Assembly (NCBI GenBank): GCA_029219885.1
Contig: JAQXUH010000062.1
Coordinates: 1 to 49,626 of the forward strand
Direction of reading: 5' to 3'
Source: Eubacteriales bacterium
Lineage (GTDB): Bacteria; Bacillota; Clostridia; Oscillospirales; Acutalibacteraceae
Length of the DNA: 49,626 nt
In this document: piece after piece, positions 45,405 to 49,589 of the stretch
How positions within the stretch are numbered: position 1 is the stretch's first letter
Layout of the letters: the number at the start of each line of letters is the position of its first letter
Notes under the pieces: model-generated
Told to the model about the DNA's origin: nothing
The model's database searches: none
The model's input: only the letters and a program-made list of their open reading frames with translations
Program-made: the position numbers and the translations under genes

Positions 45405-46877
45405 TTACATTATAACTCCGTCTTTGAAAATTGAAATTTCACGATAGCCGTTAAGTTCGGTTTTCGTTTTTTCACCTGAGGCGGTTTTAATTACCAAATC
45501 TAAAAGGTCACCGCTCATTTTGTCAAAATCAGGATTTGTAATAAGCTCCCCTGCGTTGAAGTCAATCCAGTTTTTCTTTTTCTCTGCCAAAGCAGAATTC
45601 GAGGAAATTTTAACTGTTGGAACAGGAGCACCGAGAGGGGTACCTCTGCCTGTTGTAAAGAGAATAATCTGTGCACCTGCGGCAGTTAAATTTGTGATAG
45701 AAACAATATCATTTCCGGGACCTGTCAGCAGGTTAAGTCCCTTTGATTTTACGGACTCGCCATATTCAAGAACGCCTGTAACAACAGCCTTTCCGCCCTT
45801 TTGAATACAGCCGAGAGATTTTTCCTCAAGAGTAGTGAGACCGCCGTCGTGATTGCCCGGTGACGGATTTTCATAGCACTGCTGATTGTGGCTGAAAAAG
45901 TAATTTTTAAAGCCGTTAATCATATTCACCGCATCATTGAAAACTTTTTCATTCTCGGCTCTTTGCATCAGCAGATGCTCTGCACCGAACATTTCCGGAA
46001 CCTCAGTTAAAATGGTTGTGGCACCGAAAGAGGTCAGCTTATCTGTAAGTCTGCCGCACAAAGCGTTAGAAGTTACGCCGCTGAAAGCATCTGAGCCGCC
46101 GCATTTATATCCTACAATCAGCTTGTCGATTGGTACACTCTGACGCTTAAATGTCAAGGCATAATCAATCAGCTCGCTGATAAGACGCTCACCCTCAAGA
46201 AGCTCGTCCTCGCAGTCCTGAGTTACAAGGAACTTTACTCTGTTTTCGTCAATATCGCCCAGGTATTTTTTTAAGGTTTCGACGTTAGTATTTTCACAGC
46301 CTAAGGACACCACAAGAACGCCTGCTGCATTAGGATGATTTACGAGAGCTGCAAGAATTTTTCTTGTATTTTCCTGGTCATCGCCAAGCTGACTGCAACC
46401 AAATGGATGAGTATAGGAGTAAACGCCGTCACAACCCTCTGTAACAAACGGCTGACCTAATTTTTCAAGACGCTGAGCCGTTTTATTTACACAGCCAACA
46501 GTTGGAATTATCCAAATTTCGTTTCTTGTACCAACCTTGCCGTCAGGACGGACATAGCCCTGAAATGTTAAATCGGACCTTTGAGGAACATACGGGTTGT
46601 CCTTTTCGTATTTATATTCGATTATATCCGAAAGATTTGTTTTCAAATTATGCTCGTGGATATGAGAGCCTTTCGGCGTATCTTCAATAAGATGGCCTAT
46701 AGGATTTGAATATTTTATAACATTGTCGCCTTTTTTCAAGTCACAAAGGAGCACCTTATGACCGAAAGGAATATCGTCAAGGAGAGTTATTCCCTGCTCC
46801 TGATAGCCTTTTTTCAGCTCCTCAAGAGCGATGGCAACGTTGTCATTTTCGTTAATTTTAAAAAGCTTATTCACCAC
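45405..46877 (-). CDS. uxaA: Altronate dehydratase
   Basis: The 490-residue enzyme turns D-altronate into 2-keto-3-deoxygluconate in galacturonate breakdown. The N-terminal SAF domain covers about 1-90 and the main domain carries YKCGGSDAFSGVTSN and GNHDGGLTTLEEKSLGCIQKG. The start is GTG (46877 or the next codon), after GGAGGG inside the uxaB end. It is coupled to uxaB by an 11-nt overlap. Confidence 0.93.
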   Translation of the reverse strand: MVNKLFKINENDNVAIALEELKKGYQEQGITLLDDIPFGHKVLLCDLKKGDNVIKYSNPIGHLIEDTPKGSHIHEHNLKTNLSDIIEYKYEKDNPYVPQRSDLTFQGYVRPDGKVGTRNEIWIIPTVGCVNKTAQRLEKLGQPFVTEGCDGVYSYTHPFGCSQLGDDQENTRKILAALVNHPNAAGVLVVSLGCENTNVETLKKYLGDIDENRVKFLVTQDCEDELLEGERLISELIDYALTFKRQSVPIDKLIVGYKCGGSDAFSGVTSNALCGRLTDKLTSFGATTILTEVPEMFGAEHLLMQRAENEKVFNDAVNMINGFKNYFFSHNQQCYENPSPGNHDGGLTTLEEKSLGCIQKGGKAVVTGVLEYGESVKSKGLNLLTGPGNDIVSITNLTAAGAQIILFTTGRGTPLGAPVPTVKISSNSALAEKKKNWIDFNAGELITNPDFDKMSGDLLDLVIKTASGEKTKTELNGYREISIFKDGVIM

Positions 46878-48315
46878 AAACTGCCCTCCGTACTGCCTCT
46901 TTCATTCCAAGTGAATTAATGCTGTCAAAATACGATTTTACTGTATCGTAAAGGCCGTCGATTTCTGTTAAATCAATATCCCAGAAATCTTTATTTTCAA
47001 GAACTGCTTTTACCACATCATCAGTTTTGTATGCCTTATCAAAGTAGTCTGTAACTTCTTTTGAGTCCTTGATTATATAGTCATTTCCGTCACGATGACC
47101 GACGAAAATTTCACCATCATATGTGCCGTTATAAAAGGCAATCAACGCAGAAAGACCGAAGCAGATAACTGATGGAAGCTCACCTGTCAGCTTAACATAA
47201 TCGAGTAATGACGGCAGGCATCTTGCCTTGAATTTTGACACGGAATTAAGGGAAATATCAAGAAGTCTATGGTCGATAAAAGGATTATCAAATCTGTCAA
47301 GAACGGCGGCAGCAAAAGCGTCAAGCTCTTTTTCAGGCAAGTCGATTGTCTTTTTAACCTGAGCAAGTCCTTTATTTATGTAGCGACTGAAAAGCTCGTC
47401 CTGCATCATATCACGGACAATATCAAAACCTGCAAGATATCCTGCTAAAACAGACATTGTGTGAGCACCATTGAGGATACGTACCTTTCTTGTTCTGTAA
47501 GGTGTAATATCGTCGCACCAGGTAATGTTAAGTCCTGCTTTGTGAATCGGAAAAAGCTCTGCCCACTGAGGATTTCCCTGAATTATCCAGCTGTTATACG
47601 GCTCGCAGACAGTAATAAGCTTATCATCATAGCCAAGCTTTTGTGTAATTTTATCATAATCGTTTTTCGGAAAGCCTGTAACAATTCTGTCAACGAGAGT
47701 TGAACAAAACTTACATTCGTTGTTGATATAATCGCAGAAATCATCACCAAGCTGCCACAATGACGCATACTGAAGTACATATTTTTTCAGCACATCGCCG
47801 TTATTTTCGATAAGTTCCACAGGCAGAATCAAAAGTCCACTGCCGTTTTTCTTAAATCTTTCATAAAGTAAAGCAGTCAGCTTTCCGGGATATGTTACAT
47901 CAGGAACGTCTTCAAATTTATCGCTTTCATTATAAGCAATTCCGGCCTCTGTGGTGTTAGAAATCACCACCTGCAAATCAGATGAAACTGCAATTTCAAC
48001 AAGTGATTTATAATCGTCAAAGGTATTGATACAATGGGACACGCAGGAAATTCTGTCATAGCTTTCAACAACCTGTCCGTTTTCTCTGCCCATAAGAGCC
48101 ACAGTATAAAAGCAGTCCTGCGAGTTTAAAAAATCTGCTCTGCCGTGAGGTGTTGGCTGAGCCATAACTACTTTAGAGTTAAACACGCCTTTTTCATCTG
48201 CCTTTTGAATATACCAATCGGCAAAGGCTCTTAAAAAATTGCCCTCTCCAAACTGCAAAACCTTAATCGGCAGGTCTTTAAAATTTTTACTGAATTTACT
48301 GCAAATGCTGTCCAT
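46867..48315 (-). CDS. uxaB: Tagaturonate reductase / mannitol dehydrogenase family
   Basis: The 482-residue NAD enzyme belongs to the long-chain mannitol dehydrogenase family. The nucleotide-binding part starts LPIKVLQFGEGNFLRAFADW, and the catalytic motif is RKVRILNGAHTMS (with Lys, Asn and His). Next to uxaA the likely role is tagaturonate to altronate. AGGTGACTTT supports the ATG at 48315. A longer frame to 48423 would cover the terminator of the RNA gene upstream and its promoter, so I rejected it. Confidence 0.9.
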   Translation of the reverse strand: MDSICSKFSKNFKDLPIKVLQFGEGNFLRAFADWYIQKADEKGVFNSKVVMAQPTPHGRADFLNSQDCFYTVALMGRENGQVVESYDRISCVSHCINTFDDYKSLVEIAVSSDLQVVISNTTEAGIAYNESDKFEDVPDVTYPGKLTALLYERFKKNGSGLLILPVELIENNGDVLKKYVLQYASLWQLGDDFCDYINNECKFCSTLVDRIVTGFPKNDYDKITQKLGYDDKLITVCEPYNSWIIQGNPQWAELFPIHKAGLNITWCDDITPYRTRKVRILNGAHTMSVLAGYLAGFDIVRDMMQDELFSRYINKGLAQVKKTIDLPEKELDAFAAAVLDRFDNPFIDHRLLDISLNSVSKFKARCLPSLLDYVKLTGELPSVICFGLSALIAFYNGTYDGEIFVGHRDGNDYIIKDSKEVTDYFDKAYKTDDVVKAVLENKDFWDIDLTEIDGLYDTVKSYFDSINSLGMKEAVRRAVCGE

Positions 48316-48381: not shown

Positions 48382-48396
48382 GAAAAAGGCAAAAAA

Positions 48397-48419
48397 CAGG
48401 AGGGAAAAATTCCCTCCTG
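48397..48419 (-). terminator. Terminator of the large noncoding RNA
   Basis: Minus strand: CAGGAGGGAA (48410-48419) and TTCCCTCCTG (48397-48406) around a TTT loop, followed by six Ts (48391-48396). Confidence 0.9.
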
Positions 48420-48478
48420 ACAACTTTAAATTTAATTTTATTTGTTAATTAATTTATGATATTCAGTTTTTTAAATAA

Positions 48479-48549
48479 TTAGTACATCGGTCTATACCTC
48501 GTAAATATTTTGTGCGAAGTAAAATACTTAGTCCATTGGTCTGTACCTC
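48479..48549 (-). repeat. Tandem 22-nt motif inside the large noncoding RNA
   Basis: Two copies at 48528-48549 and 48479-48500 share 19 of 22 bases, with starts 49 nt apart. Both read GAGGTA-Y-AGACC-R-ATG-K-ACTAA on the minus strand. A related piece, TCCAATGGAGTTA, occurs at about 48818-48830. Confidence 0.7.
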
Positions 48550-48907
48550 AATCTATATTTTATAGATACTTTTCATAATTTTGTTGATAATTGAATATTG
48601 GTTATGGCTTTCGCCACAAGCTGCCGGCAGTAGCAACCGATATTATATATCCTTACTATTCAATTTTCGCACTCGACTGCAATTAACCAATTCTGCCAAA
48701 TAACTTTATAATTCTTTAGAAAGTGCGTATCCGTAGGTAATTCCGATTTACCTCTGCCGATACAAATAATCCGTTAAATCATTGGATTACAGCCTGAGTG
48801 CTTGTCTGACCTGGTTCTAACTCCATTGGACAAGCCTCCTTTCATAATCTGGAACAATCTCTTTGACCTTAACTACTTCCTAAGGTCTCTCCCTTTGTTC
48901 ATCTACA

Positions 48908-48936
48908 TAATAGCATTATAATTGTTATTTGTCAAT
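48908..48936 (-). promoter_or_regulatory. Promoter of the large noncoding RNA
   Basis: Minus strand: TTGACA (48931-48936), 17-nt spacer, TATTAT (48908-48913), both consensus. The predicted start is at 48900-48901, the first base of the first helix. Confidence 0.85.
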
Positions 48937-49387: not shown

Positions 49388-49401
49388 ATATGTTTTTATT
49401 T

Positions 49402-49581
49402 CTGCCCTTCTCGATAACCGCAGACTTTAGTAACCCGAACACGTTTTTTAAGGGATTTGTCTTCTGTGAAACAGGAATGCAGACCTCCCTGCTTTTGCAG
49501 GATGTTGGGAGCACAAAGTGAACAGAGCTTAACCCACCTGCTTGAGGTGCAGGTTATTCACAGCTTGCGGCGGCTGGGCGG
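49402..49581 (+). ncRNA. ssrS: 6S RNA
   Basis: The roughly 180-nt RNA folds as one long interrupted hairpin. CTGCCC (49402-49407) pairs with GGGCGG (49576-49581), CCGCA (49418-49422) with TGCGG (49566-49570), TCTGT (49463-49467) with ACAGA (49522-49526), and CTCCC (49485-49489) with GGGAG (49507-49511). The 3' segment ACAGCTTGCGGCGGCTGG is almost the same as the conserved ACAGCCTGCGGCGGC end of E. coli 6S RNA. 6S RNA mimics an open promoter and holds sigma-70/A polymerase in stationary phase. Confidence 0.82.
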
Positions 49582-49589
49582 AATTATAA

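Follow-up and report, generated by a model that had tools for sequence, protein, structure and literature searches.

The window analysed here is a stretch of 49,626 nucleotides from a member of the Eubacteriales (family Acutalibacteraceae). Near its end an RNA gene lies on the minus strand at 48391..48904, with homologues in relatives, of which 64 copies were collected, 61 from genomes of the genus and three from other genera (G112, G227 and G237). As the initial annotation had proposed, a sigma-70 type promoter, TTGACA-17-TATTAT, was found by pattern search on the minus strand at 48907..48935. It matches the consensus at 11 of 12 positions, TG precedes its -10 element, and its position would put the transcription start near 48900. 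The promoter pattern was present upstream of 61 of the 64 copies, while promoter-like sites around the RNA gene occurred at about the chance level (6 found vs 5.1 expected). The proposed intrinsic terminator, a 10-bp stem followed by TTTTTT at 48391..48419 (minus), was likewise present. Terminator-like sites were above chance (1 found vs 0.3 expected), and a script found a terminator-like hairpin in 49 of the 64 copies.

The folding energy of 48391-48904 on the minus strand was -124.3 compared to -99.2 (sd 5.8) for 100 shuffles (z -4.3), below every one of them. Since the plus strand of the same interval folded equally unusually (z -5.2), the orientation of the RNA rests on the promoter and the terminator. 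A 5' hairpin, GAACAA/UUGUUC with an inner hairpin, is predicted at 48852..48900 (minus) from the fold of one sequence, and the hairpin with a GAAA tetraloop described earlier was located at 48603..48618 (minus) in both sequence and fold. The promoter, the terminator and the strong covariation reported below bear out the view of this locus as a large structured RNA with transcription signals of its own. The accompanying statement that no long frame is open holds inside the gene, but it overlooked short conserved frames.

Divergently from the RNA runs a DUF1292 gene (PF06949; 49067..49387, plus), and behind it lies a 6S RNA (49396..49588, plus; RF00013, E 3.6e-5, 32.1 bits). DUF1292 was the divergent upstream neighbour in all 61 testable loci, the other 3 of the 64 copies having at most 203 nt of upstream sequence. 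A 6S RNA at gathering score was found in 12 of the 25 relatives' loci scanned, in two families, namely in 2 of 5 (L039 and L040) and in 10 of 20 (L098, L112, L195, L196, L200, L205, L206, L208, L210 and L211); several loci counted as lacking it are short or may not hold the RNA. The 6S RNA of the window scores 32.1 bits against a gathering score of 46.4 and was missed by a scan at that cut-off. On the downstream side, a gene with mannitol dehydrogenase domains (46867-48315, minus) starts 76 nt past the terminator; from knowledge of the family we take it to be UxaB. It is followed by a D-galactarate/altronate dehydratase, and a promoter-like site separate from that of the RNA lies between the terminator and the uxaB-like gene. 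As judged by eye, the sequence downstream of the RNA varies among copies, including uxaB-like frames, T-box leaders (L027 and L036) and others.

A scan of 4227 Rfam models gave zero matches at gathering score over 48391-48904, in agreement with the annotation, which could assign no class and had named ROOL, GOLLD, OLE and raiA for checking. At E up to 10 only sub-threshold matches were obtained over the RNA, the best being sraA on the other strand (25.2 vs 56 bits). The relatives' loci gave no gathering-score match over the RNA itself, and the best sub-threshold match in L040 was NrrF (28.4 vs 60 bits, E 0.0013). The tmRNA model RF00023 did not match over the RNA; a separate tmRNA is present in this genome (G000:C17), and an ordinary tmRNA scored over cut-off in 28 of 31 genus genomes. 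The RF00013 match belongs to the separate neighbour at 49396-49588 and not to the RNA. Neither blastn against phage and plasmid collections nor the start pattern of the first short frame (ORF1, see below) in viral contigs gave a match, and thus nothing pointed to a mobile origin. No description of the RNA was found in the open-access PMC literature.

Searches with blastn at E up to 0.01 gave matches, some of which are short and weak, in 67 of 198 relatives. Two alignments were made, A1 with 28 of 30 sequences (L012 and L019 left out) and A2 with 26 of 28 (L016 and L026 left out), and a covariance model of the core with 173 positions and 34 pairs was built from 26 sequences. This model found the RNA in 61 of 80 genus genomes and in 45 of the 51 of good quality. 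Among 398 genomes of the family it matched in 11, seven of which belong to the genus. The RNA was accepted in three other genera (G112, G227 and G237); the match in G237 (E 0.005) was accepted on its promoter, ORF1, unit and DUF1292 synteny. A match in G405 (E 0.052) was rejected by eye, as it looks like protein-coding sequence. Among the 19 genus genomes without a model match, 16 had no DUF1292 match at E 1e-5 and the remaining three have DUF1292 no more than about 115 nt from a contig end. No intact site lacking the RNA was seen in the genus, and true loss is possible in the 16. The three truncated assemblies (G011, G052 and G072; L263, L264 and L262) all stop on the RNA side of DUF1292, so that the region may be hard to assemble. 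A named relative is Candidatus Eubacterium faecigallinarum (Clostridia). Two of 13 matching records, L183 and L191, hold the ORF1 start pattern and are titled Bacteroides sp. and Deltaproteobacteria; these are probably mislabelled metagenome bins.

A covariation check of the kind that the annotation had called for was run on 26 and on 64 sequences, and the claim of a structured RNA withstood it. With 26 sequences, 27 of the 34 pairs had changed on both sides and 88.2% of cells were paired, compared to 29-41% with slid partners and 75.8% in shuffles; of the five measures, only the count of further pair types was not above shuffles (112 of 500 reached it). With 64 sequences, all 34 pairs had changed on both sides, 90.3% of cells were paired vs 34-39% with slid partners, and none of the five measures was reached by any shuffle, in an alignment that was fitted to the covariance model and so leans towards it.

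The core is made up of several helices on the minus strand. Helix P1 (48800..48835; model helices 1-2) pairs 48829-48835 with 48800-48806 and carries the ORF1 start codon in its loop. It is followed by the long helix P2 (48671..48799; model helices 3-5), the 5' arm of which (about 48777-48799) doubles as the 3' half of ORF1 and the 3' arm of which lies at about 48671-48698. Helix P3, GUAUC/GAUAC, encloses an inner helix P4, GGUAA/UUACC (48727..48763; model helices 6-7). By eye, a likely pseudoknot spans 48626..48697, where GGCAG (48693-48697) could pair with CUGCC (48626-48630). A pseudoknot of the form GCAGG/CCUGC is probably part of the core, and matching variants were seen as GUCGG/CCGAC, GACAGG/CCUGUC and UACAGG/CCUGUA. 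When the loops of 62 of the 64 copies were paired with their own or with foreign partners, the mean was 5.77 vs 5.36, and runs of at least 5 occurred in 58 of 62 own pairings vs 81% of foreign ones, a weak control because most copies share GCAGG/CCUGC.

The first short frame, ORF1 (MELEPGQTSTQAVIQ; 48779..48826, minus), has 15 codons, ends with TGA and is preceded by the Shine-Dalgarno sequence AGGAGG (48835..48840, minus). In all 64 copies an SD core lies ahead of the ORF1 AUG, the AUG sits 10-18 nt into the covariance model, and the frame is 10-19 codons long. Its stop falls at a nearly constant place and is TAA, TAG or TGA, and in frames +1 and +2 of the same region the stops scatter. In the 24 copies with E-P and fifteen codons, part of the variation at codons 2-5 is synonymous: GAA is invariant, proline is CCN and leucine is CTN or TTA. 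At the amino acid level ORF1 is poorly conserved overall, with entropies of 0.98, 0.94 and 1.05 at the three codon positions (37 copies). An acidic residue followed by P occurs within residues 2-8 in 51 of the 64 copies, and one subclade has frames like MKLQIDSSATCKVSQ without P. The C-terminal half is variable and bound up with the helix. In the available text of PMC11282234, the EPDP sequence of MgtL destabilises the ribosome; the E-P start of ORF1 recalls it, which by analogy is a lead only.

Two much shorter frames lie in the 3' half of the RNA on the minus strand. Unit 1 (GAGGTACAGACCAATGGACTAA; 48528..48549) consists of an SD and AUG-GAC-UAA (frame 48528-48536), and unit 2 (GAGGTATAGACCGATGTACTAA; 48479..48500) of an SD and AUG-UAC-UAA (frame 48479-48487). 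To find such units in the other copies, the 3' halves were searched for RGG-N3-7-CC-R-AUG regardless of the codons that follow, in tails that were cut at a terminator where one was found (49 of 64 copies) and otherwise at 450 nt. This gave 140 units with 106 distinct sequences. Of the 64 copies, 62 held one unit or more and 58 held two or more, the number per copy being 0-4 here and up to six elsewhere. An SD-like core was present in all 140 units, in the form of GAGG or GGAG in 116. The frames were of two codons in 99 of 140 units, of at most three in 128 and of at most five in 137, whereas the other AUGs in the same tails opened frames of at most three codons in 44 of 226 cases and of at most five in 65. 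When the units were read off-frame, a stop came within three codons in 56 of 140 (+1) and 14 of 140 (+2). The stops were TAA in 106 units, TAG in 21 and TGA in 10, the three longer units not being read. Units whose third codon is a sense codon have a stop further on in the same frame (AUGUACAGUUAA and AUGUACAAGUAA).

The commonest unit peptides were MY, MG, MYS, MH, MF and MYK, and codon 2 ended in C in 128 of the 140 units. For comparison, the genes of the window use TAC for 146 of 512 Tyr codons and TTC for 162 of 486 Phe codons; the difference is less striking for GGC (283 of 659 Gly codons) and CAC (76 of 146 His codons). A script picked 28 window genes with an SD-AUG start, and CC-R preceded the AUG in none of them. 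Successive units were never less than 45 nt apart, with 43 of 78 spacings at 45-56 nt, 21 at 98-117 nt and 14 others, a spacing that would leave room for one ribosome on each unit; its regularity may come from tandem duplication. The search for shared structure around the units gave only GG/CC pairs, and the predicted openness of the unit SDs was not raised (0.31 vs 0.43 for the whole RNA; AUG 0.46; 44 of 64 copies). The 3' end of 16S rRNA, GGCTGGATCACCTCCTT, was seen in two of 40 genomes (G005, and G127 of the order), and a candidate pairing of the units with it fits AGGUGA plus UCC with an extra G. As regards its anatomy, the RNA is almost certainly a real and conserved structured class in its own right, with minimal frames arrayed in its 3' half; its translation and function we infer. 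It is not purely noncoding, a term that tells only half of the story.

Beyond the genus, DUF1292 was used as a landmark, being present in 113 of 150 family genomes. Five close genomes were left out and the other 108 were taken, from which 85 upstream regions were read. With the strict pattern, these regions of other genera held 51 units compared to 5 on the reverse complement. Units were found in 30 of the 85 regions and none in 55, some of which hold an ORF1 that the pattern missed (L100 and L101, by eye); the upstream region of L105 looks empty by eye. The presence of the RNA in the family is therefore patchy or undetected. Frames of up to five codons made up 25 of the 51 units; of the other 26, 25 had 8-30 codons, like ORF1. 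ORF1 starts resembling M-x-S-E-E-P were seen in other genera. In L098, MNSTEPKSLKANAFSGVCL is followed by one MK, four MYK and one MYS frame, the last lying past the 1000-nt limit of the unit scan, and copies between the units keep GGUGAGUCC with no AUG. At about 570-1250 of the L098 upstream region we observed a lattice of about 55 nt in which AUG units alternate with AUG-less ones that keep AAAGGTGAGTCCAA. Some units of L208 and L108, like those of L098, keep GGUGAGUCC without AUG, so that the SD-like part may matter more than translation.

In another family, MDSEQTARYHAGFSIVR (L208) or MDSEKTARYHAGFSIVR (L209) is followed by MY, MR and MT frames, and L205 has MYR, MK, MYT, MK and MI. All three loci carry DUF1292, and the two scanned for 6S RNA, L205 and L208, both have it. 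In L199 and L200 an RNA-like locus was seen for which DUF1292 gave no match even at E up to 1; L200 has a 6S RNA. Across the order, AGGTGAGTCCRATG occurred 44 times in 31 of 295 genomes compared to once for the reversed pattern, these matches being placed in part only; outside the order it was at chance, with 5 occurrences in 279 genomes vs 3 reversed. In other families of the order AGGTGAGTCCRATG appears to mark RNAs of this kind, although not exclusively, as one match precedes a 196-codon frame (L198). In genome G553 it lies at four scattered places, and the two that were read (L215 and L216) precede a 48-codon frame starting MYVATE. In the other genera, then, the promoter, the place, ORF1 and the units are recognisable while the core escapes the model.

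What the RNA does was considered in the light of these features. It is close to an even bet that it engages ribosomes, either as a decoy or as a sensor of free ribosomes or initiation capacity. Each unit would be initiated and terminated at once and could hold the ribosome or let it re-initiate, and a ribosome on ORF1 would open the core helices P1 and P2. The RNA would then be a translational counterpart of the adjoining 6S RNA, a decoy or sensor for ribosomes, with an output of either ribosome storage or a changed fold or stability of the RNA when ribosomes are scarce. Without decoding of the units, it would be hard to account for the in-frame stops of all three kinds, for their replacement by a following stop and for second codons of the form NNC. 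Promoter, place, ORF1 and units can still be made out across the order while the core changes, which points to the ribosome as the partner. The AUG-less units, the SD openness and the patchy detection in the family count against this reading. According to the available text of PMC8708949, re-initiation by ribosomes takes place on minigenes that have strong SDs, and frames of two codons may protect an mRNA; this indicates how a trap, or a shield as in one of the alternatives below, could work. A stronger version is conceivable but on the unlikely side, in which frames about 50 nt apart would each hold one ribosome and ORF1 would set the core fold throughout the order, so that ribosomes would be stored or counted much as RNA polymerase is by 6S RNA.

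The strong covariation of the core within the genus would also be expected if the function lay in the core, as a binder of a protein or small molecule, and the frames merely loaded ribosomes that shield the A/U-rich tail from ribonucleases. Such a ribosome-protected scaffold would agree with the mini-ORFs that, in the available text of PMC8708949, are reported as stabilising mRNAs in cis, but in other genera, where the model no longer detects the core, ORF1 and units can still be recognised, and we regard it as improbable.

A sponge is improbable as well. Its units would titrate a protein or a small RNA that recognises RGG-N-CC-R-AUG starts, the stops serving only to halt ribosomes; several decoy-like start regions do lie within one RNA, copies without AUG exist, and CC-R before AUG is unusual, given its absence from the 28 window genes. 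However, outside the RNA GAGG-N4-6-CC-R-AUG was found at 13 and 5 places in two genomes compared to 9 and 2 for the reversed pattern. Of these 18 matches, 3 look like the beginnings of long genes, two in one genome (L257 and L258) and one in the other (L242); judged from their first residues, these candidates differ between the two genomes. A protein site would need neither the codon-2 bias nor in-frame stops, and the sponge leaves the core and ORF1 without a part.

The acidic residue and P in 51 of the 64 ORF1 copies, the partly synonymous changes in codons 2-5 and the M-x-S-E-E-P-like starts of other genera might suggest instead that ORF1 yields a functional peptide of about 15 residues, with an acidic N-terminus and E-P, the rest of the RNA being regulatory. 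We consider this quite improbable, as the C-terminal half varies and is tied to the helix, the subclade with MKLQIDSSATCKVSQ-like frames has no P, and the E-P start could instead act by destabilising the ribosome, by analogy with the EPDP of MgtL (available text of PMC11282234). A leader or attenuator of the downstream gene, here uxaB, is very improbable despite the 76 nt that separate them, because a strong terminator and a separate promoter-like site intervene and the sequence that follows differs among copies while DUF1292 on the other side is constant.

The closest relations in kind of the RNA can be found among several known systems. 6S RNA mimics a promoter for RNA polymerase. It is likewise a free-standing regulatory RNA that imitates a nucleic-acid start signal, and it adjoins the present one, whereas the signal mimicked here would be the start site of the ribosome, in an RNA with no Rfam 6S match. 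CsrB titrates CsrA, and sponges of the CsrB/RsmY type likewise present a start-region motif several times over as decoys within a single RNA; they carry GGA loops and are not known to have AUG-codon-stop frames. tmRNA is also a structured RNA with a short internal frame, and the RNA described here has no RF00023 match. ROOL, GOLLD, OLE and raiA are likewise large or structured RNAs of Bacillota, without an Rfam match here, and to our knowledge they have not been described as bearing tandem minimal frames. The bar gene of phage lambda is a two-codon minigene. The units have in common with bar and with mg2 of axe-txe (available text of PMC8708949) an SD, an AUG, one sense codon and a stop, here kept in relatives. 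The minigenes of that text act singly within mRNAs, whereas the units stand up to six in tandem in a free-standing, structured and inherited RNA. The MgtL leader also has a short frame with acidic and proline residues near its N-terminus; it controls its own mRNA, whereas the RNA described here has no constant downstream gene. No regulatory RNA made up of arrayed minimal frames was found in the open-access PMC literature.

If ribosomes sit on the units, these bacteria could use an RNA to sequester ribosomes or to meter them, a point of relevance to how translation capacity is set in anaerobes. Start-codon-stop frames could then be selected parts rather than noise, and structured RNAs regarded as noncoding may be translated in units too short for gene finders.

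Some tails of the RNA carry further elements between the units. In the subclade of L007, L026, L027, L030 and L037 there is an extra frame of about 10 codons starting MLR with its own SD (MLRNFIVSKK in L027), which sits between minimal units and ends just before the last. In L018, L024 and L028, near-identical repeats of about 55 nt (GTACGAACGAATATCAACAATCC...) were found between the MF and MG units, which suggests recent tandem duplication.
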